This document shows positions 32,535-50,836 of a stretch of DNA of 64,000 bases, in pieces. Under the pieces are notes generated by a model. That model searched no databases, had not been told where the DNA came from, and worked only from the letters and a program-made list of their open reading frames with translations. Each line of letters opens with the position of its first letter. Position 1 is the stretch's first letter. The stretch comes from Arenibacter hampyeongensis (lineage in GTDB: Bacteria > Bacteroidota > Bacteroidia > Flavobacteriales > Flavobacteriaceae): contig NZ_PIOB01000002.1 in the NCBI RefSeq assembly GCF_002909255.1, positions 372,001 through 436,000 of the forward strand, read 5' to 3'. The position numbers and the translations under genes are program-made.

Positions 32535-34382
32535 TTGGAACCTTTTATAGTATCCGCCCGAAAATACAGGCCCCAAACATTTAAGGATGTTGTTGGGCAA
32601 CAGGCTATTACCAATACATTGACAAATGCCATAGACAATAATCATCTGGCGCAGGCACTTTTGTTTACAGGGCCAAGAGGTGTTGGAAAAACCACTTGTG
32701 CCCGTATTTTGGCCAAACAAATCAACCAAGATGGCAGGGCACATGAAGATGAGGACTTCGCTTTTAATATATTTGAACTCGATGCTGCATCCAACAATTC
32801 AGTGGATGACATAAGGGAGCTGACCAGTCAAGTGCGCATACCTCCACAAGTAGGAAAATATAAGGTATACATTATTGATGAGGTACATATGCTATCCCAG
32901 GCAGCCTTTAATGCTTTCCTAAAGACCTTGGAGGAACCACCTGCGCATGCCATATTTATATTGGCCACGACGGAAAAGCATAAGATTATCCCTACCATCC
33001 TATCCCGTTGCCAGATATTCGACTTTAAACGCATTACAGTTAAGGATGCCGCAGAATACCTAAAATATATTGCCGAGAACCAAGAAATTGAAGCGGAGGA
33101 CGATGCACTCCATATTATAGCCCAAAAGGCCGATGGCGCCATGCGCGATGCATTATCCATCTTTGATAGGGTAGTGAGTTACTCCGGCAAAAAACTGACT
33201 AGAAAAGCCGTAACGGAGAATTTGAATGTTCTGGATTACGATACCTATTTCGCTGCCACCGATCTTATTCTGAAGCATGATATTCCCGGCTTATTGATTC
33301 TTTTCAATGAAACCTTGGCCAGAGGGTTTGAAGGACACCATTTTATAAGTGGTCTGGCTTCGCACTTTAGGGATTTAATGGTTTGCCTACACCCGAACAC
33401 CATAGAACTCCTGGAAGTTGGTGAGGAGGCAAAAAAGCATTATAGCGATCAATCCAAAAAAACTTCGAGTTCCTTTTTATTAACGGCTATTGACCTCGCC
33501 AATGATTGTGACATAAAGTACAAGTCCAGTAAAAATCAGCGCCTTCTTGTTGAATTAACTCTAATGAAATTAGCCTCTATCGATTTTGATGGAGAAAAAA
33601 AAAAGTCTGAATCCTTAGGAAATGGTCGTAGCAAGCCGGATTTTATAATTCCTGCCTCATTTTACAGGATAAACCGCCCTGCAGTGGGGAACAAGGAACT
33701 TAAGTCCAAGAAAACTGAGGAAGGTGGAATTAATACTACAGCCCTACCTACAGAAACTATCCCTAAGGAAAAACAAGGTATTCAGCCCCAAACATCTACA
33801 CCCAGTACCTCCGATCAACCTCACCGTAAGGAAGAGGCTGGCAGTATGGAGGTTACCTTGGATCATATTCCAGACCCTACTCCCAGTCCCAGGACCAAAA
33901 TAAATCTAAAATCGAACGAAAGGAGGGTTTCAGGTCTTTCACTTTCCAGCTTAAAGGCAAAAAAAGAACATCAACTAAACAAAAAGGAAGATGTTATAGA
34001 TGAAAGCAACCTTCCCAAAGCTATATTTACGGAAGAGGAAATGCAAAAACATTGGGCAGATTTTGTAGATATGGCGGATAAGGATGGACGTAAAATTTTA
34101 GCTTCCAACCTACATTCCGATGTGCCCAAGTTAACTGAAAATTTTACCATTTGGATAGAATTGCCAAATGGCACTATGAAGAAGGAAATTGAGCGGGATA
34201 AGTATGACTTAATGGAATACCTAAAATTAAAACTCAACAATCACTTTGTAAAACTTAGAATATCGGTCAACGAGGCTACTGCCAAGAAATTTGCCTTTAC
34301 CCCTGAAGAGAAGTATCTAAAATTAAGGGAGAAAAATCCAGCCATCGACCTTCTGCGCAAGGAGTTCGATTTAGATATTTAA
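32535..34382 (+). CDS. dnaX: DNA polymerase III subunit tau (and possibly gamma)
   Basis: A 615-residue clamp-loader subunit. Walker A GPRGVGKTTCARIL lies near residue 44, the DEVHMLS Walker B motif follows, and sensor 1 is ILATTEKHKI. Family members begin EPFIVSARKYRPQTFKDVVG, so TTG 32535 is chosen. The four-cysteine zinc module of most DnaX proteins is replaced by a short QINQDGRAHEDEDFAF stretch, as in other flavobacteria. Domain III ends near residue 352. At codons 354-357 is GAA AAA AAA AAG (ten A in a row); a -1 shift gives GTC TGA, a stop after one residue, predicting a gamma-like product of about 358 residues. The C-terminal tau part is Pro/Ser/Lys-rich, then folded. Confidence 0.95.
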   Translation: MEPFIVSARKYRPQTFKDVVGQQAITNTLTNAIDNNHLAQALLFTGPRGVGKTTCARILAKQINQDGRAHEDEDFAFNIFELDAASNNSVDDIRELTSQVRIPPQVGKYKVYIIDEVHMLSQAAFNAFLKTLEEPPAHAIFILATTEKHKIIPTILSRCQIFDFKRITVKDAAEYLKYIAENQEIEAEDDALHIIAQKADGAMRDALSIFDRVVSYSGKKLTRKAVTENLNVLDYDTYFAATDLILKHDIPGLLILFNETLARGFEGHHFISGLASHFRDLMVCLHPNTIELLEVGEEAKKHYSDQSKKTSSSFLLTAIDLANDCDIKYKSSKNQRLLVELTLMKLASIDFDGEKKKSESLGNGRSKPDFIIPASFYRINRPAVGNKELKSKKTEEGGINTTALPTETIPKEKQGIQPQTSTPSTSDQPHRKEEAGSMEVTLDHIPDPTPSPRTKINLKSNERRVSGLSLSSLKAKKEHQLNKKEDVIDESNLPKAIFTEEEMQKHWADFVDMADKDGRKILASNLHSDVPKLTENFTIWIELPNGTMKKEIERDKYDLMEYLKLKLNNHFVKLRISVNEATAKKFAFTPEEKYLKLREKNPAIDLLRKEFDLDI

Positions 34383-34732
34383 ACCTTCCCTACCCTTTTT
34401 ATCCTCCAAGCATAAAACAACATCACCAAGGCGTTTATTATAAGGCCCAAAGATTCCCGTGCATGTTCTATATTATTTATATTTCCCCCATCTATGGAAA
34501 CCCCTTCAAAGTGCTCTGGCCAAAATATATAGGCACCTATTAAAAAAGCAAACGATAGTACCACCGGCACTATCAAAACCAATTTTTCCATTAAAAACAA
34601 AAACGAAGCTATTGCCGCCAAACCGTAAATAAAATACCATAACAGGGCATCGGGATCGTTGTACTGTAGAAATGTCGCCCAAATAAACAGTATGGTAAAT
34701 ACAGCCGAAATAATCTTGGAAAAAAGTCGCAT
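34379..34732 (-). CDS. TMEM220-like small membrane protein
   Basis: A 117-residue protein with four predicted membrane segments, matching the transmembrane 220 family pattern ATFLQYNDPDALLWYFIYG near the N-terminus. No molecular function is known. It begins 1 bp after the stop of eboF and may be the last gene of the ebo operon. Its stop overlaps the dnaX stop by 4 bp on the opposite strand. Confidence 0.82.
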   Translation of the reverse strand: MRLFSKIISAVFTILFIWATFLQYNDPDALLWYFIYGLAAIASFLFLMEKLVLIVPVVLSFAFLIGAYIFWPEHFEGVSIDGGNINNIEHARESLGLIINALVMLFYAWRIKRVGKV

Positions 34733-34733: not shown

Positions 34734-36110
34734 CTAAGAATTTAAAAGGTGGTTTTCTATAATGCCGCATACTTCTGTCGCCATCAAAGTCTCATTTAAA
34801 TCAGCTCCCCTTTTGTTGGTAATCAGAATCGGATGATCATTGGAATCTTCCGGGATTCTACCATGTGAACCCTTCACCAAAGTGGCGTCCAACGGAATAA
34901 TATCCATTATGGTTCTGAAACCTAATTTCTTCTTCAATAACTTCCAAATAACCTTTGGCATCAATAGTTTATCCTCTGGATCTGTCAACATCTCAACGGG
35001 GTCATATCCAGGCTTTTTGTGAATATCCACCATTCTGGCATAATCGGGCGCCTTGCTGTCATCCAACCAAAAGTAGTAGGTAAACCAAGAATCCTTATCT
35101 GCCAACACTACTAAATCCCCACAACGTTCATGATCTAATTGTAATTTTTGAATTTCACTGCCCGAAAGCACTTGTTCCACCCCTTTGATATTCTTCAATA
35201 TGGCCTTAACCTTGGCCACATCCTCTTTATCCTTCACATAAACATGGGCCAACTGATGATCTGCAACCGCAAAGGCCTTACTTGCACCGGCATCCAATAA
35301 TTCCAATCCCCTTTCGACTCGAATATCTAGGTATCCCTCTTGCCTTAGCTTTCTATTTAAATGAACGGGATTGTTAACATTGGTTATCCCATATTCTGAT
35401 AACAAAATAATATGGGCGGATTTACTTTCATAATACTCTACCAACTGCTTAACCACATTATCAATCTTATTTAAGTCCTTAGATATTTTACTTAAATCAG
35501 TTCCATAACGTTGCATATTATAATCCAAATGCGGCAAATACACCAAAGTCAGGGTAGGATCATGTAATTTATCGGTCTTCAAGGCAGCGTCTGCTATCCA
35601 TTGACTAGATTTAATGGAGGTTTTTGGGCCCCAAAAATGAAAAAGAGGGAAGGTACCCAATTCACTTTGCAATTGGTCACGAAGTTCCGCCGGATAGGAA
35701 TACACATCCGGGATTTTTCTTCCATCGGCCAAATAATTTGGTCTTGGAGTAACACTGTAGTCTACATTGGAATACATATTATACCACCAAAACATATTGG
35801 CACAGGTGAAATTTTTATCCTGCTTTTTAAGTTTGTCCCAAATTTTTTCTGCTTGGATCAAGCTATTGGATTGTCGCCAAAATTTAACCTCTTGTTCTTC
35901 TTTAAAATACCAACCGTTTCCCACTATTCCGTGTTCCGATGGTGTTTTTCCGGTCAAGTAAGTAGCCTGCACACTACATGTTACTGCGGGTAATTGCGGC
36001 CTAACTGTTGCCGATGTACCTTTCTCCAAAAAAGAATTGATAAAGGGAGTATGCACCCCTATCAATCCCCTAGTTAATCCAACTACGTTAAGTACTACGG
36101 TTTTCTTCAT
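34734..36110 (-). CDS. eboF: Alkaline phosphatase superfamily phosphodiesterase, EboF-like
   Basis: A 458-residue protein of the nucleotide pyrophosphatase/alkaline phosphatase superfamily. The expected nucleophile Thr lies in PAVTCSVQATYLTGKTPSEHG. Metal ligand regions include LPHLDYNMQRYG, LLSEYGITNV and VKGSHGRIPEDSNDHPIL. There is no evident signal peptide, so it appears cytoplasmic. In ebo clusters of cyanobacteria, Pseudomonas and Bacteroidota this family is the last conserved gene. Here it follows eboE by 3 bp. Its substrate is unknown; a phosphate-bearing cyclitol or sugar would fit the neighbouring EboD. Confidence 0.85.
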   Translation of the reverse strand: MKKTVVLNVVGLTRGLIGVHTPFINSFLEKGTSATVRPQLPAVTCSVQATYLTGKTPSEHGIVGNGWYFKEEQEVKFWRQSNSLIQAEKIWDKLKKQDKNFTCANMFWWYNMYSNVDYSVTPRPNYLADGRKIPDVYSYPAELRDQLQSELGTFPLFHFWGPKTSIKSSQWIADAALKTDKLHDPTLTLVYLPHLDYNMQRYGTDLSKISKDLNKIDNVVKQLVEYYESKSAHIILLSEYGITNVNNPVHLNRKLRQEGYLDIRVERGLELLDAGASKAFAVADHQLAHVYVKDKEDVAKVKAILKNIKGVEQVLSGSEIQKLQLDHERCGDLVVLADKDSWFTYYFWLDDSKAPDYARMVDIHKKPGYDPVEMLTDPEDKLLMPKVIWKLLKKKLGFRTIMDIIPLDATLVKGSHGRIPEDSNDHPILITNKRGADLNETLMATEVCGIIENHLLNS

Positions 36111-36113
36111 GCT

Positions 36114-37307
36114 TTATAGATTGCACTTTAACCATTCCAATTCACGTACAATGGAATTGGACAGTTCAGTTTTAAGATTTTTGGGCAATACGTCCCAAGT
36201 ATAGGTCTCTATCTCCAATTGATCGGAGAATTGATCTTTCTTAAGGTATTCCAACACCTTGATTATTTGATCCTGGGTGGAAAATAAATGATCATACTTT
36301 TCCAAAAAAATGGGAACATGAAAGTGGGATCTTAACTCTGCCACCTTTGGGCGTTTCTCCAAGACCTCTGCCAAATCCTTATAAGTAATAACTTTGCCCC
36401 CAACTTTTTCAGTCACCTGATGTAAGTATGTGGGTTCATTGAACTGAGCCAAAGAGCGCCATATTTCCTCATTTTCGCCTTCATTAAAAAGTATTTTAAG
36501 AGCCGAGCTCACTTGTATTTTTCCAACCTTTATCCCAGCCTTTCCAAATTTTTCCAAAGTATACTCCGGTTCTTCATAGGCTAAAGAAAAATGACAAACG
36601 TCGTAACAAATTGTTATATGTTTTAAAATTAATTCCCTGGCCGTTTCTTTGGTACAGCCCAGAGCTGCCGTCAATTTATGAGTGGCTAAAGGTATTAGAT
36701 ATGCTTCGTAAAAATGAAGTACCTCATCGCTATTCTCCATCATACCATCAGGTTCAGGTTCAATGTCCAAATGAAGACTTTTACCCGTATTTCTTTCAAT
36801 ATCCACCAAATGTAAAACAACCTTAGACATACTTTCCGCGCCTGTTATGAAAGCCTTATCCAATGCTTCCGATGAAGTATGCCAATGCCTGTAACTGACA
36901 GGCGAAGTAGAAATACCCCCTGAAATACCTTCTGGGATCAAAAAAGCCAATTGATCAAAAAGACGTTTGGTATAATCCAATCTTTCCTTGGTGGTCCAAT
37001 CCGGTGCATGAACCATATCCTTTACCCGCTCATTGTGAAAGTTCCCATAAGGGAATCCATTCATGGTAAAGACGTAAAATTGATTTTGATCCAACCAAAC
37101 CTTAAAATCCTGCAAATTATCACCTTCATTAAGTCCCAAACTCGCAATATTGGACAAGCGTAATCCTATTCCAAAAGGTGTTTCCGGGGAAACATCCTTT
37201 TTAATTTTGGGTAGATAGGTTTTTAGGCTATGTAAGGTCTGCTCCCAATCTTCACCGGGATGTATGTTGGAACAATAACTAACATGATATTTATTATCTA
37301 CTAACAT
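36114..37307 (-). CDS. eboE: Metabolite traffic protein EboE (xylose isomerase-like TIM barrel)
   Basis: A 397-residue sugar-isomerase-like TIM-barrel protein of the EboE family. The opening VSYCSNIHPGEDWEQTLHSLKTYLP is characteristic. Likely metal-site segments are Glu/Asp in HLDIEPEPDGMMEN, His in TICYDVCHFSLAYEEP and the FHVPIF strand. It overlaps the stop of eboD by 7 bp and precedes eboF by 3 bp. No enzymatic activity is established for EboE. In Nostoc punctiforme the ebo cluster is needed to move a scytonemin precursor to the periplasm. Confidence 0.88.
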   Translation of the reverse strand: MLVDNKYHVSYCSNIHPGEDWEQTLHSLKTYLPKIKKDVSPETPFGIGLRLSNIASLGLNEGDNLQDFKVWLDQNQFYVFTMNGFPYGNFHNERVKDMVHAPDWTTKERLDYTKRLFDQLAFLIPEGISGGISTSPVSYRHWHTSSEALDKAFITGAESMSKVVLHLVDIERNTGKSLHLDIEPEPDGMMENSDEVLHFYEAYLIPLATHKLTAALGCTKETARELILKHITICYDVCHFSLAYEEPEYTLEKFGKAGIKVGKIQVSSALKILFNEGENEEIWRSLAQFNEPTYLHQVTEKVGGKVITYKDLAEVLEKRPKVAELRSHFHVPIFLEKYDHLFSTQDQIIKVLEYLKKDQFSDQLEIETYTWDVLPKNLKTELSNSIVRELEWLKCNL

Positions 37308-38482
37308 ATGCTATTGGATACTTGAGGTTTGTACTTTTCCTTTAACCAAATTATTGCTTTTCCCATGGTAGCCAAATCAATTTCATGCACATCATGCTTA
37401 GCTCCTATTTTGGAGATCAATGTTATGGTAAGTTCACCACCTAAATGTTCCCTAAATTCCTGAATACCATTTAACAACTCATACAATTCATTATCTTTTT
37501 CAATAGGTATATGTAAATTGAATCCAATTTGCTCCAATACACCTAATATACGGTCCAGCGTAACTTTATTAATTAAGCCTATAAAATGGGCATAGACCAG
37601 ATCTACGGCCATACCTATTGCAACAGCCTCTCCATGCCTAAGTTGGTAATTGGTCATGTATTCCAATTTATGTGCGGCCCAATGACCAAAATCCAAAGGT
37701 CTGGAAGAACCACTTTCAAAAGGATCTCCTCCTTGGGCAATATGCTCCATATGCATCTCTGCACAGCGATAAACCAAGTACTCCATTGACTCCATTTCGC
37801 GTAACTGAAGTTTTGTGCTGTTTTTCTCTATAAATTCAAAGAATTTCCCATCCTTGATCAAAGCTACCTTCACTGCTTCCGCTATACCTGAAATCCAGTC
37901 GCGTTGATGTAAGGTGGTTAAAAAATTACTGTCATTAATAATGGCATAGGCAGGGGCAAATGTTCCCAAAAAATTCTTTTTGCCTAAAATATTAAAGCTG
38001 TTCTTAACGCCAACGGCGGAATCGTTCTGAGAAAGTACTGTGGTAGGTATTCGTATAAGTTTTACTCCCCTGTGTGCAATGGCAGCGGCATATCCAACCA
38101 GATCTATTATTGCCCCCCCTCCAATAGCAACAACAAAAGAATGTCTACAGATACGATTGTCATTTATAGCCTTCAATATACGCTCCACATTTTGGTAGTC
38201 GTTCTTACACTGTTCCCCACCCGCAATCTCCATTTGTGCGGTCAGATTTATTACTGAATCATTCAACTTGCAATAGGAGGATATTTGTGAGCTTAAATTT
38301 GGATGACATTCCTGAACACCACTGTCTATAACAAAAAGCACCCTTACGCCTCCCTTCTTATTGTAACCCTTAATGATATCTTTGAACAGAGGGTTATGGG
38401 TACTAAATACATGTTCGGTAAAATGCAACCTATACTCATAAGATACTTTGAAGGACTGCTCAATTGGCTGATAATGTGACAT
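37301..38482 (-). CDS. eboD: 3-dehydroquinate synthase-like cyclase EboD
   Basis: A 393-residue sugar phosphate cyclase. The NAD site is VVAIGGGAIIDLVGYAAA, followed by IPTTVLSQNDSAVGVKNS. The metal-site His are in DFGHWAAHKLEYM and LRHGEAVAIGMAVDL. It belongs to the EboD branch of the superfamily, distinct from AroB, so it probably cyclises a sugar phosphate other than DAHP; the product is unknown. The frame extends to 38569, but homologs begin at MSHYQPIEQSFKVSYEY, so ATG 38482 is chosen, 11 bp after eboC. It overlaps eboE by 7 bp. Confidence 0.88.
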   Translation of the reverse strand: MSHYQPIEQSFKVSYEYRLHFTEHVFSTHNPLFKDIIKGYNKKGGVRVLFVIDSGVQECHPNLSSQISSYCKLNDSVINLTAQMEIAGGEQCKNDYQNVERILKAINDNRICRHSFVVAIGGGAIIDLVGYAAAIAHRGVKLIRIPTTVLSQNDSAVGVKNSFNILGKKNFLGTFAPAYAIINDSNFLTTLHQRDWISGIAEAVKVALIKDGKFFEFIEKNSTKLQLREMESMEYLVYRCAEMHMEHIAQGGDPFESGSSRPLDFGHWAAHKLEYMTNYQLRHGEAVAIGMAVDLVYAHFIGLINKVTLDRILGVLEQIGFNLHIPIEKDNELYELLNGIQEFREHLGGELTITLISKIGAKHDVHEIDLATMGKAIIWLKEKYKPQVSNSIC

Positions 38483-38493
38483 ACTCTTAAAAG

Positions 38494-39393
38494 TTAGGTA
38501 ACTGCGAACAGTTTGGATAAAAAAATTGACAGGGGCAATAGCAATAAGGTTATCAAACCTACCCACCAATAGGAAAATCCAACGGCCAAGGTTGCATCCA
38601 AAACAATGATCGATATTACCCCGGCCATCACTGCTTTTTTTATGTTTTGTGGTGAATTTTCCCTGTAGGCTTTCAATAAGGGCTTAAATACTAAAAAAGA
38701 AAAGAGCAATAAAAAGGGAAGGGATTCCAGTAGATTCAATTCGGAAATTGAAAAAAGTATTATTATACCCAAGATAACACTGGAATATAACCCTCCTGCA
38801 AACAGAATGTGACTCCTATTTTGCCCGTGAACTTCCCCTCTACTGATAAGTGTTATGGCCGCGATGTAAACCACCGGGAAGATGAAATATCCCCAATTGC
38901 TCAAATCGCTCAAAATGGAAATTCCGAGCAACAAGTTCAATCCCCTACAAATACCCATATTTAATGGGCCAAAGAAGGAATGATGCTTCCCCAACGCATC
39001 ATACAAAAGAATGGAAAGCCCCAGAGCAAAAGCGATTATGCCACATACGGAGCTCACTAAAAATGCACTTAGCACCCCCAAATTCATTAATACACCACCA
39101 AAGATGGCTGCATATTTCACCGGAATTAATCCAGAAGGAATGGGTCTTTCCGGGCGCTCTATTTTATCCAACCTATGATCAAAGACATCATTGAGCACAA
39201 CACCTGCAGCATATAGGAACACTGAGGCAAATACCAACAACAATATTTCTACAAACCTAGATGTACCCCAGGTACTTGCGGTTATGCCTAAAAATAAGCC
39301 CGAGATAGCTACGCCTGCTATAATATCGGCAGCCGCGGTAGGTAAATTTGCAGGTCTGGCCAGACGTAAATATCCTTTAAATACAGGATTCAT
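38494..39393 (-). CDS. eboC: UbiA-family prenyltransferase EboC
   Basis: A 299-residue integral membrane protein with about eight hydrophobic segments. The Asp-rich prenyl diphosphate motif NDVFDHRLDKIERPERPIP (NDxxDxxxD) lies near residue 68. The second loop contains DALGKHHSFFGPLNMGICRG. UbiA proteins attach polyprenyl groups to acceptors at the membrane, so this is the most likely lipid-linking step of the ebo pathway. Its ATG overlaps the stop of eboB in TAATG, and eboD starts 11 bp downstream. Confidence 0.9.
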   Translation of the reverse strand: MNPVFKGYLRLARPANLPTAAADIIAGVAISGLFLGITASTWGTSRFVEILLLVFASVFLYAAGVVLNDVFDHRLDKIERPERPIPSGLIPVKYAAIFGGVLMNLGVLSAFLVSSVCGIIAFALGLSILLYDALGKHHSFFGPLNMGICRGLNLLLGISILSDLSNWGYFIFPVVYIAAITLISRGEVHGQNRSHILFAGGLYSSVILGIIILFSISELNLLESLPFLLLFSFLVFKPLLKAYRENSPQNIKKAVMAGVISIIVLDATLAVGFSYWWVGLITLLLLPLSIFLSKLFAVT

Positions 39394-40301
39394 TATACTA
39401 TTTTATTCGCATCAACCTTAGGCTCCTGCCCTCGCAAAACACTATTATCATTATATAACTTGGTCTGATTGATGCCTCCTGGTTTCAACCAATCGGATTC
39501 TTTCATTTTACCATTCTTGCCAAAAATATCCAGTGCATTTTGGTAACAAGTTTTAACCACATCCGATTTGGCTATTCCCCTTTTCAACATAAGGGATGCC
39601 GTTTTTGGCACCGCTAGCGGATCACTAACACCCCAATCGGCGGAACTATCCACAATGATACGATTGCTTCCATAATTTCTTACCACCTCAACCATTCTTT
39701 CATTACCCATTTTGGTTTTTGGATAGATTGTAAATGCAGCCCAAAAACCGCGATCCAATACATCTTTAACGGTTTCTTCATTGTTGTGATCAATAACAAC
39801 CATAGCTGGATCTAAACCATGCTCCAAACAAACCTCCATACTTTTTAAGGTTCCCGATTTTTTATCCCTATGTGGGGTATGTATTTGTACCGGTATATTT
39901 AATTCTTTGGCCAACTCCAATTGCATCCTAAAATATTTGTCCTCTGCCGGAGTCTGATCGTCATATCCTATTTCGCCAATGGCCACTACATTTTCCTTAT
40001 GTACATATAGCGGTAATAACTCAATTACTTGTTCTGCCAATGCCTCATTATTGGCTTCCTTTGAGTTTAACCCTATAGTGCAATAATGATGTATTCCAAA
40101 CTGGCTAGCTCTAAATGGCTCCCAACCTACAAGGCTGCTGTAATAGTCCTGAAAAGAACCAACCTGAGTACGCGGTTGCCCCAACCAAAATGAAGGCTCT
40201 ATAATAGCCACTACACCAGCTGCTGCCATTGCCTCATAATCATCTGTAGTCCTAGACGTCATATGCACATGTGGGTCTATAATCATCATTTTCTCTTCCA
40301 T
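39393..40301 (-). CDS. eboB: TatD-family metal hydrolase EboB
   Basis: A 302-residue amidohydrolase-superfamily TIM barrel. Metal-binding residues are in IIDPHVHMTSR, GEIGYDDQ, VQIHTPHRDK, MVVIDHNNEE and VDSSADWG, so the active site is complete. It is annotated in ebo clusters as EboB and heads the tight eboB-C-D-E-F run. The 248 bp upstream, toward the ThuA gene, show no clear TAnnTTTG promoter. The substrate is not known. ATG codons a few residues in are alternative starts. Confidence 0.87.
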   Translation of the reverse strand: MEEKMMIIDPHVHMTSRTTDDYEAMAAAGVVAIIEPSFWLGQPRTQVGSFQDYYSSLVGWEPFRASQFGIHHYCTIGLNSKEANNEALAEQVIELLPLYVHKENVVAIGEIGYDDQTPAEDKYFRMQLELAKELNIPVQIHTPHRDKKSGTLKSMEVCLEHGLDPAMVVIDHNNEETVKDVLDRGFWAAFTIYPKTKMGNERMVEVVRNYGSNRIIVDSSADWGVSDPLAVPKTASLMLKRGIAKSDVVKTCYQNALDIFGKNGKMKESDWLKPGGINQTKLYNDNSVLRGQEPKVDANKIV

Positions 40302-40549
40302 AATATTCTTGTATACTTTAATTGATAAACATGCCTAAACCAAAATGTTGCATTGCACAATTCGGACTTAATTATAATAATCTGAATAAATCATCTTTTT
40401 AAAAGCAATTCCAACCGCTAAAGTTAATTAAATAATGGGTTTTAACGCTTATAACAACTCCATTTTAAAAGTGTTTTAACAGAAAACCAAATTACAATCC
40501 TGAGTTTCGGACTAAAAAAATCACAATAACTACAAATACGATCTTCGCC

Positions 40550-43500
40550 TTAATATTTCAATATCATAGAGTTAAAATTTCCAATAATTTGTTCCTTATC
40601 GCCCTCACCCTTAAATACTAGATATATATCCTCAAAATCCGAAATTGGCTTAACAGGGATATCATATTTCTTCTTGGCGCCTTTTTCCTTATTAAAATAC
40701 TTCAATGAACTTTCTCCTATAAGGTTACCGGTAGGACTATTCTCCCTTATTTCAAATGTTCCCTCGTATGGATAGTCCGCTCCAAAATACATGGACAGCT
40801 CTATATTCTTCAGACCCTCCAATCCAATATTATTAAATTTCAAATAAGAATTATTTTTAATGGACCCAACTACTTCATCACCCTCTACTTTCCAATTACT
40901 TAATCCCCCACTTTTTTCATCGGCGTTCACGCCTACATATTTTGGGAATTTAAAAATTATTTGATCTCTTGCCGACAGGGAGGATTCAGGCTGCGCTTTG
41001 CTTCCTTTATCCGAATATGAGGCCATTAAGACATACTTTCCTTGGCTTCTTTTAGCCTTATGTTCATTAAAACCAACTTCGCCGGATAGGGGAAGTTGGT
41101 TTTCATCTTTCCCCATTTTCGGATCGAGTGAAAGAATGTAATCCACTATTCTATCTACTTCTGCGACCTTTAATTGAGGGTGTGCAGACATCATACTCTC
41201 TCCCCAAACCCCAGAACCGCCTTTGATGATTTTATCTATCAGATAATTTTTATCCTCTGCTGAATAACGGGCTGCAATTTCCTCATAAGTAGGCCCATTC
41301 ACCTTTACATTCACGGCATGACATGCCTTACAGTCCGTTTCGTCCATAATTAATTTGCCTTCCGGAATAGTGTTCTGCTGATGGCCAATGGTGGCCTTAA
41401 CCATATCCTCACCCTCGGGAATATAATCGAAGGTAACTTTAACCTCCTTGGGGTCAATGGTACCGTCCAGTGTACTACCATCCTGTTTATCGGTCACAAT
41501 AACCTTGTAAGCCACTTTCCGGCCATCCCAATAGGTCTTGTTTTTAGAGTCCAATTCTATTTTTATTTCGGGTATATCATTCCCTACCAATATTTTATGG
41601 GTCGATATATCCCAATTTCCGGCTTCGTCGGTCACCTTTAAACGGACCGTATAATTCCCTGGCTCGTGGAATGTAAAACTAGGTTCCATTGAAGCATCTT
41701 GGACCTCATCTGAATTAAAATACCATTCATACTTCAACTTATCCTTATCAAAATCCTCTGATGAACTACCGGAAAATTGTACCGTAAAGGGTTGGGCCCC
41801 TACCATTTTGTCCGATGTTATTCTGGACACTGGTTTGCGATTACCACTTACGTAACCAATTCTATTTAAACGGGCATCCATATTTTGTGAATTCCATTTT
41901 TGTCCATATTCAAGAACATATAGATTGCCATCCGAAGCAAAAAGCATGTCCATTGGATGGGAAAACTCACTACTCGGCATAAAGGGATCTGCCTTGACAT
42001 AGTTGTGATTGTCATCCAAGGTCACCACATATACCCAATCCCTCATCCACTCATATAAAAGAATCTTATTCTCAAAATAATCTGGAAAATTATTGGTGGC
42101 CTTAGGATAATTCGAAGCATGATAAATAGGACCTGCCATAGGGTTAACACCTCCCGAACCCAACCATGGAAATTCCTCAGAAGCGGCATAGGAAAACCAT
42201 ATCATTGACTCCTGTGCAGGGGGAAGCTCCCTTATACCCGTATTATTTGGTGAATCATTTATTAATTTATTAGGGTTAAATTTTTCTCCAGCTGTTTCCG
42301 TAGCAAAATCATAATCGTTGTACGGCTGATTGTTTCCTCGAGTATACGGCCAGCCCCAATTCCCGGCTTTTCGAGCTTGGTCAAATTCGCCCATACCATG
42401 AGGTCCACGTTTGGGGTCCCCCTTACCTGCGTCCGGACCAACATCTCCCCAATAGAGATAGCCCGTTGCACTATCAATAGAAAATCTAAACGGATTTCGA
42501 CTACCCATTACGTATATTTCAGGCCTTGTATTTGCGGTGCCTTCTGGAAAAAGGTTGCCCTCCGGTATAGAATAAGTACCGTCATCCTCTGGTTTAATCC
42601 TCAATATTTTTCCTCTAAGATCATTGGCATTGGCGGCCGATTTTTGAGCATCCCATAACGCTCTGCCTGCCCTTTCATCTATTGGGGCATACCCAGAAGA
42701 TTCAAAGGGGTTAGTGTTGTCCCCCAAACCAATAAATAAGTTGCCATCCGGTCCAAATTCCAACGCACCTCCACTATGACAGCACTTACGGATTGTTGGT
42801 ATGGTCAATAAATTTTTCTCTGACGCCAAATCCAACGAATCGCTCACCAAGGTGAATCTTGAAATACGTTGTTCAGATATTTCCCCAGGTGCGGAATAGC
42901 ATAAATAGATCCAATTATTATTCTGATAATCGGGGTCAACTGCAATACCCAATAATCCGTCTTCATTGCCATAAAACACATCCAGCTGGGCTATTTTCTT
43001 TGTTTTTTCCTCCTTAAAATCATAAAGTTTTAAAGCTCCCCTTCTTTCCACGAACAAAATTCCCCTACCAGGAAGTTCTTCGAGTTCCATGGGCTCGTTC
43101 AGGTTAAAATCGAGTACAGTGCGAACATACCTGTTTTCCTCTGGAATCCTTTCCGTTTTAGACTTACTATAATCCAAGTCAACTTTCCCAATAACGTACT
43201 GAAGTCCGCCCAAAACATGATTTAAAAAATCACGATTTTCAAAAGTGGCATCGGTATGCCCCATTTCCGTATAAAACGATTTACCCCCGTCATAGTCATG
43301 ATACCAAGATATTGGATGATGTTCCCCATTTTCCCCACCCTCATAACTGGTTTCGTCAATTTCAATTAGTACCTTAATATCTGGATTGATATCCCTAAAA
43401 TTATACCATTCGTCCGTCTTCATCCATGTGTCGGACATAGATTTTGTAGCTGGATGGTTTTTGTCCACAATATTCAACCTTGCTTCTTGAATTTTCGGGT

Positions 43501-43900
43501 GTCCTTTAAAATATGCCCCGACCAAATCATTGTACCATGACCAACCGTATTCGGTATCTGTAGCGGCATGTATTCCAAAAAATCCGCCGCCCGCCTGAAT
43601 ATATCTCTCAAAATCGGCCTGTTGCTCCTCATTTAAAATATCTCCCGTAGTGTTTAAAAATATCACGGCGGAGTATTGCTTTAGTATTTCCTCGGTAAAA
43701 TAGGTAGCATCTTCGGTAGCATCAACATTATAAGCGTTTTGTTCACCTAATTTTTTCATAGCTACCACACCTGCCTCGATGGAACCATGTCTAAATCCTT
43801 CCGTTTTACTAAACACCAATAATTTTACTTCCTTGGATGTACATGAACCAAGAAAACCAACCAAGATCAATACTAGTAATGATTTTGAAATGTTACCCAT
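40550..43900 (-). CDS. ThuA / sugar dehydrogenase / PKD / cytochrome c lipoprotein
   Basis: A 1116-residue exported protein. ATG 43900 gives a lipoprotein signal ending FLGSC (lipobox); upstream in-frame codons to 43945 are not needed. Domains: ThuA (~25-240, with SKTEGFRHGSIEAGVVAMK and GIHAATDTEYGWSWYND); a PQQ-dependent glucose/sorbosone dehydrogenase-like beta-propeller (~265-690, GNEDGLLGIAVDP and GSRNPFRFS); PKD near 727; class I cytochrome c with CKACH near 857; and a C-terminal carbohydrate-binding-like beta domain. The order suggests oxidation of a sugar or sugar-like compound with electrons passed through heme. Its substrate is unknown. It sits between eboB and the divergent DUF1080 gene. 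Confidence 0.9.
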   Translation of the reverse strand: MGNISKSLLVLILVGFLGSCTSKEVKLLVFSKTEGFRHGSIEAGVVAMKKLGEQNAYNVDATEDATYFTEEILKQYSAVIFLNTTGDILNEEQQADFERYIQAGGGFFGIHAATDTEYGWSWYNDLVGAYFKGHPKIQEARLNIVDKNHPATKSMSDTWMKTDEWYNFRDINPDIKVLIEIDETSYEGGENGEHHPISWYHDYDGGKSFYTEMGHTDATFENRDFLNHVLGGLQYVIGKVDLDYSKSKTERIPEENRYVRTVLDFNLNEPMELEELPGRGILFVERRGALKLYDFKEEKTKKIAQLDVFYGNEDGLLGIAVDPDYQNNNWIYLCYSAPGEISEQRISRFTLVSDSLDLASEKNLLTIPTIRKCCHSGGALEFGPDGNLFIGLGDNTNPFESSGYAPIDERAGRALWDAQKSAANANDLRGKILRIKPEDDGTYSIPEGNLFPEGTANTRPEIYVMGSRNPFRFSIDSATGYLYWGDVGPDAGKGDPKRGPHGMGEFDQARKAGNWGWPYTRGNNQPYNDYDFATETAGEKFNPNKLINDSPNNTGIRELPPAQESMIWFSYAASEEFPWLGSGGVNPMAGPIYHASNYPKATNNFPDYFENKILLYEWMRDWVYVVTLDDNHNYVKADPFMPSSEFSHPMDMLFASDGNLYVLEYGQKWNSQNMDARLNRIGYVSGNRKPVSRITSDKMVGAQPFTVQFSGSSSEDFDKDKLKYEWYFNSDEVQDASMEPSFTFHEPGNYTVRLKVTDEAGNWDISTHKILVGNDIPEIKIELDSKNKTYWDGRKVAYKVIVTDKQDGSTLDGTIDPKEVKVTFDYIPEGEDMVKATIGHQQNTIPEGKLIMDETDCKACHAVNVKVNGPTYEEIAARYSAEDKNYLIDKIIKGGSGVWGESMMSAHPQLKVAEVDRIVDYILSLDPKMGKDENQLPLSGEVGFNEHKAKRSQGKYVLMASYSDKGSKAQPESSLSARDQIIFKFPKYVGVNADEKSGGLSNWKVEGDEVVGSIKNNSYLKFNNIGLEGLKNIELSMYFGADYPYEGTFEIRENSPTGNLIGESSLKYFNKEKGAKKKYDIPVKPISDFEDIYLVFKGEGDKEQIIGNFNSMILKY

Positions 43901-44348
43901 ATTACCTTTTTTATTTAGTTTAGTTAATAAATTATAGAGACTCAATCTTGGTCCAGTAATGATTTTCCGACCTTAATAAATTTCAAGATTATATAAATAT
44001 ATGCCGAAATTGATACTTTTTTTGCTTAAACACCATGATATCGTCCAATAATGTGGCAATTTAAATCATTTGAAAATAATTCTACAAAATCTTGGGAAAA
44101 AATACCACAATGCCCAAGAATTCATCTTTCCAGCCCTATTTCTTCCATAATCCAAACAATTCCAAATAAATCGTCTAGATACAGGCATCCCAACCAAAAA
44201 AACAATCTAAAATCATTAAGTTATTCTTTCCTCGTGGCCAAGAAAAAAAACCACAAATGCATTAAATGTTAAATTACCACAGACCCTATTGTTAAACTCT
44301 GATTAATGATACCTTTAGATCCAATTTTTAACAACCAAGTATATCAAA
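43901..44348. other. Divergent intergenic region between the two exported-protein operons
   Basis: 448 bp separate the ThuA lipoprotein gene from the DUF1080-PA14 gene. Near the right end, TTG (44289-44291), an 18-bp spacer and TACCTTTA (44310-44317) approximate the phylum promoter consensus for the plus-strand gene. No clear promoter is seen for the minus strand. An open frame at 44051-44272 has no protein-like composition and is dismissed. Confidence 0.4.
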
Positions 44349-46238
44349 ATGAAAATTAAATTAGCAATCCTATTACTTTTTTCCGGATTTAGCATGATGT
44401 CCCAAGTACAATTATCGCTGGAGAACCTTAATGGTTTTAAGGACCCGACCAGCAATTGGAAAATAGTGGGTGATGTCGTTGCCGACCGCAACATTACCGT
44501 TCACACGCATCAGGACCCGGAACCAATTATTTTATCCAAAAAGGAAAAACGAAGACAAAAAAAGTCAAAAGAATCCATACACCCCATACATATTGAGCCC
44601 GGAACGGGTGTTTTGTTCAATGATTACTCCTTTACACAAAAAGATCATCTTTTGTCGCAGTGGCAACATGGGGATATAAAATTGGAAATGGAGGTCCTAA
44701 TACCTAATGGCTCTAATTCAGGAATATATTTACAAGGCAGATATGAACTTCAAATTAAGGATAGCTGGGGTGTATTGAATCCTACTTCCTATGATTTTGG
44801 TGGTATCCATCGAAATTGGGAAGAAGAGCCATCAAAGAAATTTCTGGGAATTACCCCATTGAGCAATCCGGCCAAGGCACCAGGTTTATGGCAAAAGATC
44901 AATATTCACTTCGAGGCTCCAAAATTCAATGAATCCGGAGAAAAAATTGCAAATGCTAAATTTGTTTCCGTAACATTGAACGGAGTAACAATCCACAGCA
45001 ATGTAGAAGTTCCGTTACCTACCGGCGGTCCTATTTCCACACAAGAAACCGCTATGGGCCCGCTTATGATTCAAGGAGATCATGGCCCGATGGCATTTCG
45101 GAATATTAAGTATCAGCTATTGAAAGAATCACAAGTCACTTTATCGGATTTAAGTTACATCACCTATAAAGGCGATTTTAAAGGCTTGGAAGAATTGGAA
45201 GATGCAGTGGCGTCGGAAAAGAAATCAGGGGAACTAATAGACGTTAATGCTGTACATGAGGAAGATCGTTATGGTATTGCCTATACGGGTAAAATTATTA
45301 TTCCCGAAGCGGATGACTACCACTTTTCCATAGGATACACAGGTGGAATAAATTTTACCATTGACGGCAAAACCATTGTCACCAATAATTCTTCGGATGC
45401 CCAGGAAAATTTGGAGAAAACGGTTTCTTTAAATGCGGGAGCGCACGTATTTACATTGACCAATATAAAAAATGCAGGCTGGAGAGCACCTAGGTTGGGA
45501 CTTTCAATTGCAACAGCCAGTACCAATCCCAAAAACTTTCATGTTTATGATTCCTATCCACCAGATATAAGTTCTGTTTCCCCAATTTTAGTCAACGCCG
45601 AGGCTACTCCACGTATGTTAAGGGGTTTTGTAAGTTTTAAGGGTAATGAAGAGCGGCTTTCCCACACCATAGGCCTAGGGACACCCGAGGGCATTAATTT
45701 TGTATATGATATGGGTGCCGAAAATCTTGTAGGCATGTGGCGCGGTGCTTTTATAGACGCTACACCTATGTGGCACAGTAGAGGTAACGGATCCTTTAAA
45801 CCTAATGGAGCCGTTCAGTGGACTTTTTTGAACCAGCCTCTGGCCGAACTGGCGGACTTAAATAGTCCATTTCCCAAAACTGGAAGCGCTCCTGAATTTA
45901 AATCTGGAGGATATACTATGAACCCGGCCAACGGGCTACCTATCTTTAAATACACTTACAAAGGCGTTGAGGTAGAGAACAGGATTTATCCCAATGACAA
46001 AAACACCCATCTGATAAATGAAGTGAGTTTTTCCAAAACCGGAGATCCTAATTGGTACTATAAAATTGCCTCTGGAAAAGCCAAGAAATTAGCTGACGGG
46101 TCATTCGATGTTGATGACCACCAATTCTACATAAACATACTTTCTGGGCAAGAACCCATCCTTAGAGAGGTTAATGATGAAGCTGAAATAATTATTCCAG
46201 TGGATGGCAGTACTATTAAATATGAAATAATTTGGTAA
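44349..46238 (+). CDS. Secreted DUF1080 (3-keto-disaccharide hydrolase-like) and PA14 protein
   Basis: A 629-residue exported protein with signal peptide (MKIKLAILLLFSGFSMMSQ). The DUF1080 concanavalin-like fold (~20-275) shows GSNSGIYLQGRYELQIKDS and PGLWQKINIHFEAP. A PA14 domain (~290-400, GDDYHF-like GIAYTGKIIIPEADDYHFS) follows, then a C-terminal beta domain with MPTHWHS-like GMWRGAFIDATPMWHSRGNG. DUF1080 proteins act on or bind oxidised sugars in some systems. The gene lies 5 bp before the cytochrome-bearing propeller gene, so the two are co-expressed. It is divergent from the ThuA lipoprotein. Confidence 0.85.
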   Translation: MKIKLAILLLFSGFSMMSQVQLSLENLNGFKDPTSNWKIVGDVVADRNITVHTHQDPEPIILSKKEKRRQKKSKESIHPIHIEPGTGVLFNDYSFTQKDHLLSQWQHGDIKLEMEVLIPNGSNSGIYLQGRYELQIKDSWGVLNPTSYDFGGIHRNWEEEPSKKFLGITPLSNPAKAPGLWQKINIHFEAPKFNESGEKIANAKFVSVTLNGVTIHSNVEVPLPTGGPISTQETAMGPLMIQGDHGPMAFRNIKYQLLKESQVTLSDLSYITYKGDFKGLEELEDAVASEKKSGELIDVNAVHEEDRYGIAYTGKIIIPEADDYHFSIGYTGGINFTIDGKTIVTNNSSDAQENLEKTVSLNAGAHVFTLTNIKNAGWRAPRLGLSIATASTNPKNFHVYDSYPPDISSVSPILVNAEATPRMLRGFVSFKGNEERLSHTIGLGTPEGINFVYDMGAENLVGMWRGAFIDATPMWHSRGNGSFKPNGAVQWTFLNQPLAELADLNSPFPKTGSAPEFKSGGYTMNPANGLPIFKYTYKGVEVENRIYPNDKNTHLINEVSFSKTGDPNWYYKIASGKAKKLADGSFDVDDHQFYINILSGQEPILREVNDEAEIIIPVDGSTIKYEIIW

Positions 46239-46243
46239 GTGAT

Positions 46244-48190
46244 ATGAGAACCATAACAAAAAATATAAAAACAGCCATTAAGACATTCGGCTTCCTGACG
46301 ATACTTCTTTCAGCAACATTTTTAGTTGCTCAAAATGCTTCCACCGAAGAGGATTACTACAGACTAACCACGGTACCAACACCAGAGGGAATCCAAATGG
46401 AAGGCGGAGGCGTATTATCCCTTCCCAATGGAAATCTTGCCGTGTGCACGAGACGGGGAGATGTTTGGATTATTGAAAATCCGTCCATGGCCAATGGTGT
46501 TTCGTCAACATTTAAAAAATTCGCTTCTGGTTTACACGAACCCCTGGGACTTGCCTACCATGACCAAGCTCTTTACACTGCACAAAGAGGCGAGCTAACT
46601 AAACTAATTGACACCAACGGAGATGATATTGCCGATGAATACAAGACCATCTATGCCTGGCCTGTTTCCACCCACTATCACGAATATTCCTTTGGACCGG
46701 TACTGGCCCCCGACAATACCTTTTTCGTGACCGCCAATGTTGCCTTTGGCGATGAAGAATGGTGGAGAGGAGAAAGCAGGGTGCCATGGAGGGCCTGGAC
46801 CATGAAGATAACCGAGGACGGCAAAATGGAACCATGGGCAACGGGCATGCGGTCTCCCGCTGGATACGGCCTGGTAAATGATGAATTATTCTATACGGAA
46901 AACCAAGGGGACTGGGTAGGATCCGGGGCTATTTGGCATCTTCCAAAAGGGGCATTTGCAGGACACCCCGCAGGACTAAGATGGACTGGTCACGAAGATT
47001 CTCCTATTAAACTGACGGAGGAAGAATTTTACGGGAAGGTGGACAAAAGACAAGTCAGGGTAAATGGCCGGTATGTAAAACCCGAAAATATTAGGGATGA
47101 GGCAAATCCGGATTTTGCATATGAATTAAAGAAATCTTTCCCTGAATTAAAATTACCGGCAGTAATCTTACCGCACGGCATTTTGGGCATATCCAATTCC
47201 GAAATCAAGGTGGACGAGACCCAAGGTAAATTTGGGCCATTTAATGGCCAATTACTTGTTGGGGACATGGGCCAAAGTAAAATTATGAGGGTAGTTCTCG
47301 AAAAAGTCAAGGGTGAATATCAGGGAGTGGCATTCGACTTTAGGACAGGCTTCCAATCTGGAGTTATGCGTATGGATTTTGATAACGAAGGAAGACTTTT
47401 TGTTGGGGAAACCAATAGAGGTTGGGGATCTGCCGGTACTACCAATTCCGGCCTGGAATATTTGACATGGACAGGGCGCACACCCTTTGAAATGAAAACT
47501 GTAAACGCTATGCAGGATGGATTTGAAATTGAGTTTACATTGCCTGTAGACAAAGTTTCGGCGGAAGATCTGGATTCCTATTTTGGCAAGAGCTACATCT
47601 ATAAATATCATGCTGCATATGGCAGTCCGCAAACCAATATAGAGGAGATCAAGTTCAAAGGGGTAAAAGTAAGTGATGACGGAATGAAAGTACGTGTCGT
47701 TGTAGACAATCTTCGTCAATACTATGTTCATGAAATTATGTTGCCTGGGATAAAAGCCAAAGAATCTGGCAATACTATCTTACACCCTACATTGTATTAC
47801 ACTTTGAACAATATACCAGAAGGTGCTACTGTGCCCATATCTGAACTCTCCACCAAACGCTCCAGCTTATTAAAAAAAGCGGTTAGCACTAAGAAAACCA
47901 CACCAAAAAAATCGACCACTACTGCCAAAGCATTAACAGACACTGAAGTACAGCCTCTATTAATGACCAATACTTGTGTGGCCTGCCATCATAAGGACAA
48001 GAGGGTCATTGGACCTTCCTTTACGGAGATTTCAAAAAGGAATTACAGTAATGAAAAAATTGTGGAATTAATTTACAATCCACAGCCCAAAAACTGGCCG
48101 GAATATGCCACTCCAATGGCTCCAATGCCCCATGTTCCAGAGGACGAGGCACTAAAAATAGCTGGGTGGATCAACTCATTGAAAAAGTAG
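46244..48190 (+). CDS. Exported beta-propeller / cytochrome c protein
   Basis: A 648-residue protein with an N-terminal export signal (FGFLTILLSATFLVAQ) after a basic stretch. A PQQ-type six-blade propeller region (~35-400) contains EGGGVLSLPNGNLAVCTRRG, TKLIDTNGDDIADEY and FNGQLLVGDMGQSKIMRV. A lysine/threonine-rich linker (~535-555) leads to a class I cytochrome c with CVACH near 576 and distal Met in the TPMAPMPHVP segment. ATG 46244 is chosen over GTG-like codons upstream. It is the second gene of a pair with DUF1080-PA14. A terminator follows. It probably passes electrons from an extracytoplasmic dehydrogenase; the substrate is unknown. Confidence 0.87.
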   Translation: MRTITKNIKTAIKTFGFLTILLSATFLVAQNASTEEDYYRLTTVPTPEGIQMEGGGVLSLPNGNLAVCTRRGDVWIIENPSMANGVSSTFKKFASGLHEPLGLAYHDQALYTAQRGELTKLIDTNGDDIADEYKTIYAWPVSTHYHEYSFGPVLAPDNTFFVTANVAFGDEEWWRGESRVPWRAWTMKITEDGKMEPWATGMRSPAGYGLVNDELFYTENQGDWVGSGAIWHLPKGAFAGHPAGLRWTGHEDSPIKLTEEEFYGKVDKRQVRVNGRYVKPENIRDEANPDFAYELKKSFPELKLPAVILPHGILGISNSEIKVDETQGKFGPFNGQLLVGDMGQSKIMRVVLEKVKGEYQGVAFDFRTGFQSGVMRMDFDNEGRLFVGETNRGWGSAGTTNSGLEYLTWTGRTPFEMKTVNAMQDGFEIEFTLPVDKVSAEDLDSYFGKSYIYKYHAAYGSPQTNIEEIKFKGVKVSDDGMKVRVVVDNLRQYYVHEIMLPGIKAKESGNTILHPTLYYTLNNIPEGATVPISELSTKRSSLLKKAVSTKKTTPKKSTTTAKALTDTEVQPLLMTNTCVACHHKDKRVIGPSFTEISKRNYSNEKIVELIYNPQPKNWPEYATPMAPMPHVPEDEALKIAGWINSLKK

Positions 48191-48214
48191 TCCCCGCGAA
48201 GACCAAATAAAAAA

Positions 48215-48260
48215 GTGCGGTTCAAAAAGTTATACACAGAACTTTTGAACCGCCTTTATT
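48215..48260. terminator. Bidirectional terminator between the exported pair and eboA
   Basis: Stem GCGGTTCAAAAAGTT / AACTTTTGAACCGC (one bulged A) with an 8-nt loop, flanked by an A-rich run on the left and T-rich run on the right, between convergent genes. Confidence 0.9.
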
Positions 48261-48278
48261 TTTACATTTGGTATAGTA

Positions 48279-49136
48279 TTATTCTTTTATGTTCTCCCAA
48301 GTAATAATTCCCTTTTCAATTTCTTTTGAAAGATCGGGAAATTCGGCCAACAGTGCCTTTGCAGCACTTGAATTGGAATTATAGCAACAAAGACCGGCAG
48401 CTTTTCTTTCGGTCAGATTATCACTGGAAAATAGCCGTTTCATATCCTTTAGCAATTTTTCGTCCATGAAGTTGCCCACCGGCCTCCAAAAGCTTGGATC
48501 TATTGCCCTTGATGCTGCCCAACGCTCGTGAGCATAGTCGGAAATAATTCGAGTCAGTTCCTTATTTGCCCTTTTATCTACTTGAACTATTTCATTAAGA
48601 TTTTGCTGCATAAATGCCGCCTTAAGATACATTTGGTTCCATTGCTGCTCATTAAAATAAAGTGCAGGATAAGGATTGTTCAATGCAATGGCATCAAAAA
48701 CGGTAGCTATATTGGTCCGGAGTGCCTCTACAGCCTGAAACTTATAATTTTCGGGATTAGGAAGCAACACCAGAAATTTCAAAAAGGTTTCCAATTCACT
48801 CTTATCAGCAACTTCTATAATATTTGCCACCTTGGCTTTAAAAAAATCTTCCTTTGCCTCCAATACCTTGTAAAGCAGGAAAATTCTAGCAATCTGTTGT
48901 AGGTTTGCTTGTTGAACTTCCAGATATGCCTTTAATTCTTTGTCATCCAATAAAAGTGACAAATCTTTCTCCGTCTTAATTTTGGTAGGAACCAAACTAT
49001 AGGTTAAATACAGATCCTTAGTTGACTCCGTTTCCACAATGCTTTCTATTTTGGACAATAGCCATTGCCTATTTTCCTTATCCACATTATCCTCCAAAAT
49101 TTTTAAGAGCTGTGAACCTATATTTTCAAATACCAT
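48279..49136 (-). CDS. eboA: EboA domain protein
   Basis: A 285-residue all-helical soluble protein without signal peptide, matching the EboA family. The C-terminal part is diagnostic: YAHERWAASRAIDPSFWRPV followed by DLTERKAA-like NLTERKAAGLCCYNS. Helical repeats fit a HEAT-like scaffold. Its molecular role is unknown. In most ebo clusters eboA directly precedes eboB. Here it has the same orientation but is separated by three exported-protein genes, two on the opposite strand. It is divergent from miaE. Confidence 0.85.
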   Translation of the reverse strand: MVFENIGSQLLKILEDNVDKENRQWLLSKIESIVETESTKDLYLTYSLVPTKIKTEKDLSLLLDDKELKAYLEVQQANLQQIARIFLLYKVLEAKEDFFKAKVANIIEVADKSELETFLKFLVLLPNPENYKFQAVEALRTNIATVFDAIALNNPYPALYFNEQQWNQMYLKAAFMQQNLNEIVQVDKRANKELTRIISDYAHERWAASRAIDPSFWRPVGNFMDEKLLKDMKRLFSSDNLTERKAAGLCCYNSNSSAAKALLAEFPDLSKEIEKGIITWENIKE

Positions 49137-50823: not shown

Positions 50824-50836
50824 ATGAGATTTATTT

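Follow-up and report, generated by a model that had tools for sequence, protein, structure and literature searches.

The window analysed here, a stretch of 64,000 nucleotides from Arenibacter hampyeongensis (contig NZ_PIOB01000002.1, positions 372,001 to 436,000), carries a genuine complete ebo locus of Arenibacter in which eboA is parted from the tight run of eboB to eboF by 8 kb. Comparison with related genomes indicates that the eboABCDEF-TMEM220 operon of relatives is interrupted in this genus by an insert of shifting content, the split being, by parsimony, an insertion. It further points to the gene of a small membrane protein of the TMEM220 family as a likely seventh member of the set, and to EboF as a protein whose invariant active-site residues depart from the canonical ones.

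The widespread ebo cluster, found also in cyanobacteria and algal plastids, and the bare fact of the Arenibacter split are already known, the separation of eboA from the other ebo genes in Arenibacter being in print (PMC5133447). Set against the main-text sections of that paper, what is added here is the candidate TMEM220 partner seen in Bacteroidota, the insert with its history and its contents, and the replacement of the EboF site. TMEM220, the EboF site and a set of recurring redox genes are worth following. Handles on ebo function are provided by a candidate membrane partner, by invariant EboF residues and by the naturally occurring separation of eboA from the other ebo genes.

The insert between eboA and eboB, and the TMEM220 gene beside eboF

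The sequence-only reading of the window had proposed a complete ebo set split by three exported-protein genes, with eboF-E-D-C-B as a tight minus-strand run and eboA at a distance. Open reading frames (ORFs), profile matches and signal sequences judged by eye bear this out. The run occupies positions 34734-40301 (eboB and eboC overlap by 1 bp, eboC and eboD are 11 bp apart, eboD and eboE overlap by 7 bp, eboE and eboF are 3 bp apart; overlaps thus reach at most 7 bp and gaps at most 11 bp), and eboA is on the same strand. The three genes between eboB and eboA encode a multidomain ThuA-GSDH protein, a 3-keto-disaccharide hydrolase of the DUF1080 family (KDH) and a DUF7133-like protein with a cytochrome c region (CytD), each beginning with a Sec or lipoprotein-type signal as judged by eye. 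ThuA-GSDH is encoded on the minus strand and the other two on the plus strand, converging on eboA; therefore eboA-F cannot be one operon, and the six clustered genes do not form a single contiguous transcription unit. All six Ebo proteins fall in the families described for them, EboA (domain model), EboC and EboE scoring above the curated cut-offs (Table 1); EboA scores 180.8 bits with the stricter EboA_family model NF035937, whose cut-off is 320. EboB and EboF matched no NCBIfam model of their own and are assigned from gene order and from their similarity to orthologues in the compared loci (EboB 69-98% identity, EboF 55-93%).

The ABCDEF-type operon of PMC5133447 resembles this locus in its six genes, their families, and the order and strand of eboB to eboF. 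In a family sample of 199 genera, EboC is above cut-off in 30, Arenibacter among them. In each of the 29 others eboB follows eboA immediately, the two matches being separated by less than 130 bp and by no gene. The flanks of the window recur in 23 of them, with MiaE-like, ppx, ppk and histidine phosphatase genes at one end and TMEM220 and dnaX at the other. The neighbourhood is conserved in related genomes, and of the two grounds on which the sequence-only reading could have been refuted (unrelated families, no conserved neighbourhood) neither was borne out. Eighteen Arenibacter loci were compared, 17 fetched plus the window (L and G numbers below are our handles for loci and genomes). EboA is present in 18/18 genomes of the genus, and 17 loci (16 fetched plus the window) show both eboA and eboB; the slice of L062 stops short of eboB. 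An insert of 1278-9768 bp sits at the eboA/eboB junction in all 17, which rules out the split as an artefact of this window. In the 16 fetched loci showing both genes the matches of eboA-F span at least 98% of their length. The full trio is present in nine fetched loci and the window, ThuA-GSDH alone in four loci, and only a short DUF1080 gene in two (in L060 as two ORFs); L062 and L063 have the short DUF1080 gene with ThuA-GSDH, L063 with two more ORFs. Remnants of CytD adjoin eboA in the ThuA-GSDH-only loci L055 and L061, and also in L057 as seen in its named copy L127. An insert found in all 17 of these loci with content that varies suggests that it entered once, or repeatedly at one spot, with continuing change.

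Outside Arenibacter, a named collection of 73 loci (L132-L204, some from genomes also among the 29 genera) contains a single locus with genes at the same junction, that of Croceivirga thetidis (L202). These encode CytD (68% identity) and KDH (47-48%) and are oriented as in Arenibacter; Croceivirga lutea (L194) has no genes there. The CytD proteins of three genera in which CytD is not encoded at the junction are 78, 76 and 69% identical to that of Arenibacter. The Croceivirga protein being no closer than these, simple transfer from Arenibacter is argued against.

In the window TMEM220 begins one base past the end of eboF on the same (minus) strand. It adjoins ebo genes in 25 of the 29 other genera; in the remaining four it lies 3.2 kb off (L070), on another contig (G018, G110) or is missing (G195). 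An adjacency survey that covered L202 and 41 selected loci away from the common one, 42 in all, bears on its independence from dnaX: ten loci outside the dnaX context (L085, L089, L092, L094, L164, L189, L193, L240, L246, L251) have TMEM220 within 3-45 bp of ebo, upstream of eboA, downstream of eboF or, in L240, upstream of eboE, and Pfam confirmed the family in all five of the ten that were submitted. Of the genomes retrieved under G handles, 31 have an ebo region away from the common locus, and 20 of these were compared with control regions; five had been left out beforehand because their contigs were short or, for G539 and G578, because no region had been retrieved. TMEM220 occurs in 7/20 of these ebo loci against 0/40 control regions (Fisher p 0.0002); when the window protein is the only query the counts are 5/20 and 0/40.

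The gene also co-occurs with ebo at larger scale. Among 395 Bacteroidota genomes, 31 have EboE above cut-off, and TMEM220 is above its cut-off in 24 of these against 25 of the 364 EboE-negative genomes; by genus the same sample gives 16/19 against 14/152. Within the 199 genera of the family the figures are 29/30 for ebo-positive and 13/169 for ebo-negative genera. In a number of ebo-positive genomes TMEM220 lies at a distance from ebo or on a separate contig, so the co-occurrence does not reflect shared location only. Mere travelling of TMEM220 with dnaX is countered both by this unlinked co-occurrence and by the ten ebo-abutting loci. From these sequence comparisons TMEM220 appears to behave as a seventh ebo gene and is likely a membrane partner of the Ebo proteins, which goes beyond print as far as searched: the open-licence search found no bacterial or operon literature on TMEM220, of 100 papers on it the eight listed dealt with human disease, and the word is missing from the main text of PMC5133447. 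One TMEM220 each was also found in a Pontibacter, a Neolewinella and two Neomarinimicrobiota metagenome-assembled genomes (MAGs). The MAG loci L193 and L198, labelled Candidatus Neomarinimicrobiota, carry ebo and TMEM220 with an EboB 78% identical to flavobacterial EboB, pointing to transfer or mis-binning.

Active sites and folds of the Ebo proteins

Residues were audited in distinct sequences from the fetched loci, within set length ranges and none with X. All 121 EboF sequences carry V10, Q200, E239 and Y240 at canonical metal-ligand positions, and all keep T44, H194, D196 and H416. In PF01663 proteins we take the set D, D, H, D, H, H to be the two-metal ligands and the Thr to be the nucleophile; in EboF the corresponding residues are V, D, Q, E, Y and H, together with the Thr, so that the canonical ligand set is not kept. 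The five usable own-genome PF01663 paralogues all keep D, D..H and DH (of seven ORFs, L097 and L101 were set aside as wrong picks, and in L096 and L100 the first Asp is displaced by two alignment columns). The Asn of the T-x-P-N motif falls at EboF position 47 by the same alignment. The structure predicted for EboF has a mean pLDDT (predicted local distance difference test) of 87.1, weak at 361-372, and matches 1ei6 with E 5.5e-19; in this model the fold is that of phosphonoacetate hydrolase/NPP. The label 'alkaline phosphatase-like' given by the sequence-only reading holds for the fold and not for the chemistry, four canonical metal-ligand positions being replaced throughout. A site that is invariant yet non-canonical suggests selection for another use rather than decay. 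A phosphodiesterase label for EboF is accordingly doubtful on its residues, a point that extends what is in print as far as searched.

EboF could still be a phosphohydrolase that acts on a phosphorylated intermediate, its site binding a single metal or binding metal in an altered way. The invariance of T44, H194, D196 and H416 and the phosphonoacetate hydrolase fold speak for it, and a Glu replacing Asp could still bind metal; the Asp to Val and His to Tyr changes, however, remove ligands outright in 121/121 sequences, and the five usable own-genome paralogues retain them as D, D..H and DH. We regard this alternative as possible, with the balance against it.

The other enzymes keep residues of catalytic type. 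EboB has the TatD-like H-x-H, E, H, H, D set, presumably of metal ligands, in 123/123 sequences. EboC, above the cut-off of its family profile, has NDxxDxxxD as first Asp motif in 123/123 and, at the presumed site of the second Asp-rich motif of UbiA, an RGEVHG-type stretch with E187 in 123/123. In EboD, E202, H267 and H283, which we take to be metal ligands, are kept in 124/124 (H267 was placed by alignment to 1dqs, the others by motif). Positions K250 and R264 of the Aspergillus nidulans 3-dehydroquinate synthase (DHQS), presumably substrate contacts, are mostly M (102/124) and S (119/124) or A (5/124), respectively; EboD thus lacks the K250 and R264 expected of a true DHQS. In the 1dqs alignment N268 corresponds to D and H275 to H. 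ValA (4p53) is a sedoheptulose 7-phosphate cyclase (PMC4426668). It shares with EboD the D at N268 and differs from it in keeping Arg at R264 and in having Pro at H275, with Leu at K250. Matches of the EboD profile to 4p53 and 5tpr begin at position 14, those to the other solved sequences at position 44 or later. EboD therefore seems to resemble neither DHQS nor ValA exactly and fits the separate clade described in PMC5133447. EboA is predicted with high confidence as all-helical (pLDDT 94.2); its model gave no PDB match at E <=0.001, with weak ARM/HEAT/TOG-like matches only.

Some loci deviate from the usual set. L253, L254 and L259, from one genus, have other genes and no eboC match between eboB and eboD, eboC being possibly lost, moved or diverged. 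In L258 (G386) eboE is in two overlapping pieces, a possible frameshift or assembly error.

Periplasmic redox genes and the proposed product

Genes of the types found in the Arenibacter insert recur near ebo elsewhere. ThuA-GSDH lies between eboB and eboC in L240 and after eboF in L092 (69% identity), CytD and KDH follow eboC in L237, and L241 has a ThuA-GSDH-like gene near eboC (28% identity). With the insert proteins of the window as queries, 6/20 ebo regions of 20 kb were positive against 3/40 control regions (p 0.03), one of the six (L239) by a weak match 6 kb away. A wider family set gave 9/20 against 6/40 (p 0.015), a difference inflated by the choice of families for their recurrence near ebo. 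Fifteen of the 199 genera have TMEM220 but not close to ebo (13 ebo-negative, plus G018 and G110), and in three of these 15 genomes it stands beside or near KDH and CytD or ThuA-GSDH. In L303 (G110, whose ebo genes are on a different contig) it lies 82 bp from KDH, which CytD follows. In L305 (G051) it is close to KDH and CytD and in L304 (G006) it precedes ThuA-GSDH, in both cases with a TonB-type receptor gene between and in a genome that lacks ebo. These stretches (L303 1781-6208, L304 1649-10262, L305 1084-8451) also hold genes for cupredoxin-bearing CytD-type, Gfo/Idh/MocA, TIM-barrel and TonB-receptor proteins. The recurrence of redox genes beside ebo or TMEM220 is suggestive of a link and, as far as searched, goes beyond print.

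Known systems offer parallels. The scytonemin operon of Nostoc has the same Ebo protein families, and its scheme of export followed by periplasmic ScyE resembles the combination of ebo with exported redox genes seen here (PMC6282210). Unlike in Nostoc, the proteins exported from this locus are of the ThuA-GSDH, DUF1080 and DUF7133/cytochrome c types. The CytD type stays below the cut-off of 80 bits of the ScyD/ScyE family NF033206 (16.7 bits for the window protein, 27.7 for the best, from L237), too weak to assign. The EDB cluster of Pseudomonas fluorescens NZI7, likened here by its description only, also has ebo near exported-protein genes (as told in PMC6282210). The Ubi-297 enzymes of Maribacter, Zobellia and Algoriphagus correspond to EboC by family, being prenyltransferases of the same family within an ebo cluster (PMC9235831).

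The three exported genes could instead be unrelated sugar-use genes that landed by chance in the Arenibacter ancestor and are slowly being lost, in which case they would be uninformative on ebo function. The insert is restricted to Arenibacter in the comparison with the 29 other genera, its content decays (of the 18 loci, four keep only ThuA-GSDH and two only the short DUF1080 gene), and close orthologues are mostly away from ebo. A periplasmic DUF1080 protein has been proposed as 3'-ketolactose hydrolase, and DUF1080 proteins are linked with 3-ketoglycoside use (PMC9007349). Chance does not readily account for KDH and CytD at the identical junction in C. thetidis and their absence in C. lutea, for the same gene types within or beside ebo in L237, L240, L241 and L092, or for their occurrence beside or close to TMEM220 in three genomes in which that gene does not adjoin ebo. 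We consider a chance insertion tentative and clearly short of an even prospect. Co-occurrence of ThuA-GSDH with ebo was dropped as functional proof. The gene is in 25/30 ebo-positive and 7/169 ebo-negative genera, and a lifestyle control, alginate lyase PF08787, gave a weaker association (11/30 against 37/169, p 0.07); shared clade can nevertheless explain the pattern, because four of the six ebo-positive genera outside the common locus are without ThuA-GSDH (G002, G036, G049, G195).

The account that we favour, and for which the case seems to us about evenly balanced, joins the history of the insert, a cyclitol-prenyl pathway, TMEM220 as partner and the periplasmic placement of a small molecule. 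EboD would convert a sugar phosphate, for instance sedoheptulose 7-phosphate, into a C7-type cyclitol, which EboB and EboE would trim and EboC would then prenylate. EboA could be the helical scaffold that holds the complex, EboF would act at its rebuilt NPP-fold site rather than as a canonical two-metal phosphodiesterase, and TMEM220 would serve as membrane partner. The product would position or retain a small molecule on the periplasmic side, within reach of secreted redox proteins like those of the insert, which could act on it. The idea of a cyclitol joined to a prenyl group is that of PMC5133447, and the cyclitol-lipid product put forward by the sequence-only reading is likewise a published hypothesis (PMC5133447, PMC6282210), compatible with the catalytic-type residues kept in EboB, EboC and EboD. 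In Nostoc, ebo is needed for export of the scytonemin precursor to the periplasm: in mutants of the ebo genes studied, eboD not among them, the scytonemin monomer stays in the cytoplasm (PMC6282210).

Several results weigh against this account. The redox link is statistically weak (p 0.03) and partly clade-driven. In the other 12 of the 15 genomes with TMEM220 away from ebo the redox genes are not near TMEM220, and of nine other genomes with a ThuA-GSDH orthologue of at least 60% identity, seven are ebo-positive and one has the gene beside ebo. All co-occurrence tests count genomes or genera as independent, with relatedness uncorrected. TMEM220 is not universal: it was not found in the one cyanobacterial genome tested and is absent from G195 and from 7/31 ebo-positive genomes at phylum level. 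In L141, L164 and L255 no eboD match lies between eboC and eboE; a Leeuwenhoekiella ebo operon without eboD is mentioned in PMC5133447.

Less probable is that the product is no carrier but a prenylated metabolite used in defence, either secreted or bound to the membrane, such as a quinoline or similar ring bearing a farnesyl group. In vitro the EboC orthologues of Maribacter, Zobellia and Algoriphagus transfer a farnesyl group to 8-hydroxyquinoline-2-carboxylic acid (PMC9235831), and the Pseudomonas EDB cluster, which includes ebo genes, gives protection from nematodes (as related in PMC6282210). That acid is, however, the best of 14 test acceptors rather than a demonstrated natural substrate (PMC9235831), and retention of the scytonemin monomer in the cytoplasm of Nostoc ebo mutants fits export better (PMC6282210); we hold a defence metabolite to be unlikely. 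More improbable still is that ebo and TMEM220 build a prenylated cyclitol-derived membrane cofactor for periplasmic electron-transfer enzymes (beta-propeller, cytochrome c, cupredoxin), by which precursor export in cyanobacteria and the sugar-oxidising gene sets of Bacteroidota would be two uses of one lipid cofactor.

Locus features and expression signals

The features of the locus are collected in Table 1. Expression after the split could start from an element, TGTTAAA-N-TTTAAA, that lies about 180 bp (145-192 bp) upstream of eboB in the window and in all 16 fetched Arenibacter loci with eboB, the two loci without ThuA-GSDH included. It was chosen after viewing the alignment, so that these counts are post hoc; an earlier, stricter form, found in 7/16 Arenibacter loci and not in the window, was then loosened. 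None of the 29 other genera has the element upstream of eboA or eboB. The sequence TTG-N-TAnnTTTG, which we take to be the flavobacterial promoter consensus, has no match upstream of either gene, and no known promoter consensus matched. We infer that the element marks a candidate promoter region allowing expression of eboB-F apart from eboA. A terminator-like hairpin with a U-tract separates eboA from the insert (fold z-score -3.62), although scanning for a simple consensus gave no terminator.

Table 1. Features of the ebo locus in the window, with supporting evidence (bit scores and curated cut-offs)
Feature	Position	Strand	Evidence
TMEM220 family protein (PF15071), 117 aa, small membrane protein	34379..34732	-	PF15071 66.4 bits, cut-off 27
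eboF, NPP/phosphonoacetate-hydrolase fold (predicted), rebuilt active site	34734..36110	-	PF01663 226.8 bits
eboE, xylose-isomerase-like TIM barrel	36114..37307	-	NF035939 482.7 bits, cut-off 250
eboD, sugar phosphate cyclase superfamily	37301..38482	-	PRK06203 and DHQ_synthase
eboC, UbiA-like prenyltransferase	38494..39393	-	NF035940 375.9 bits, cut-off 250
eboB, TatD-like metallo-hydrolase	39393..40301	-	PF01026 74.4 bits, cut-off 27
TGTTAAA-N-TTTAAA element, promoter-region candidate for eboB-F	40464..40481	-	kept across Arenibacter loci
ThuA-GSDH, exported ThuA-GSDH-PKD-cytochrome c-CBM6-like protein (insert)	40550..43945	-	Pfam domains; signal by eye
KDH, exported 3-keto-disaccharide hydrolase (DUF1080), PA14-like (insert)	44349..46238	+	PF06439 75.7 bits, cut-off 26.8
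CytD, exported DUF7133-like protein, C-terminal cytochrome c region (insert)	46232..48190	+	PF23500 27.2 bits, cut-off 27
Hairpin with U-tract between eboA and insert, terminator-like	48195..48262	-	fold z-score -3.62
eboA, all-helical protein (predicted)	48279..49136	-	NF035938 155.3 bits, cut-off 50

The cytochrome c region of CytD scores 19.6 bits with PF00034, under the cut-off of 21.3. For eboD the ATG at 38482 was chosen over the listed TTG at 38569. The listed TTG start of the 1131-aa insert protein is probably 15 codons too early, a lipobox LGSC following an ATG at about 43900. TMEM220, the earlier description of the Arenibacter split and the farnesylation of 8-hydroxyquinoline-2-carboxylic acid by EboC had not figured in the sequence-only reading. 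Upstream of eboA, positions 49313-54209 of the window hold a MiaE-like gene and genes for Ppx/GppA, polyphosphate kinase, histidine phosphatase and PNP oxidase.

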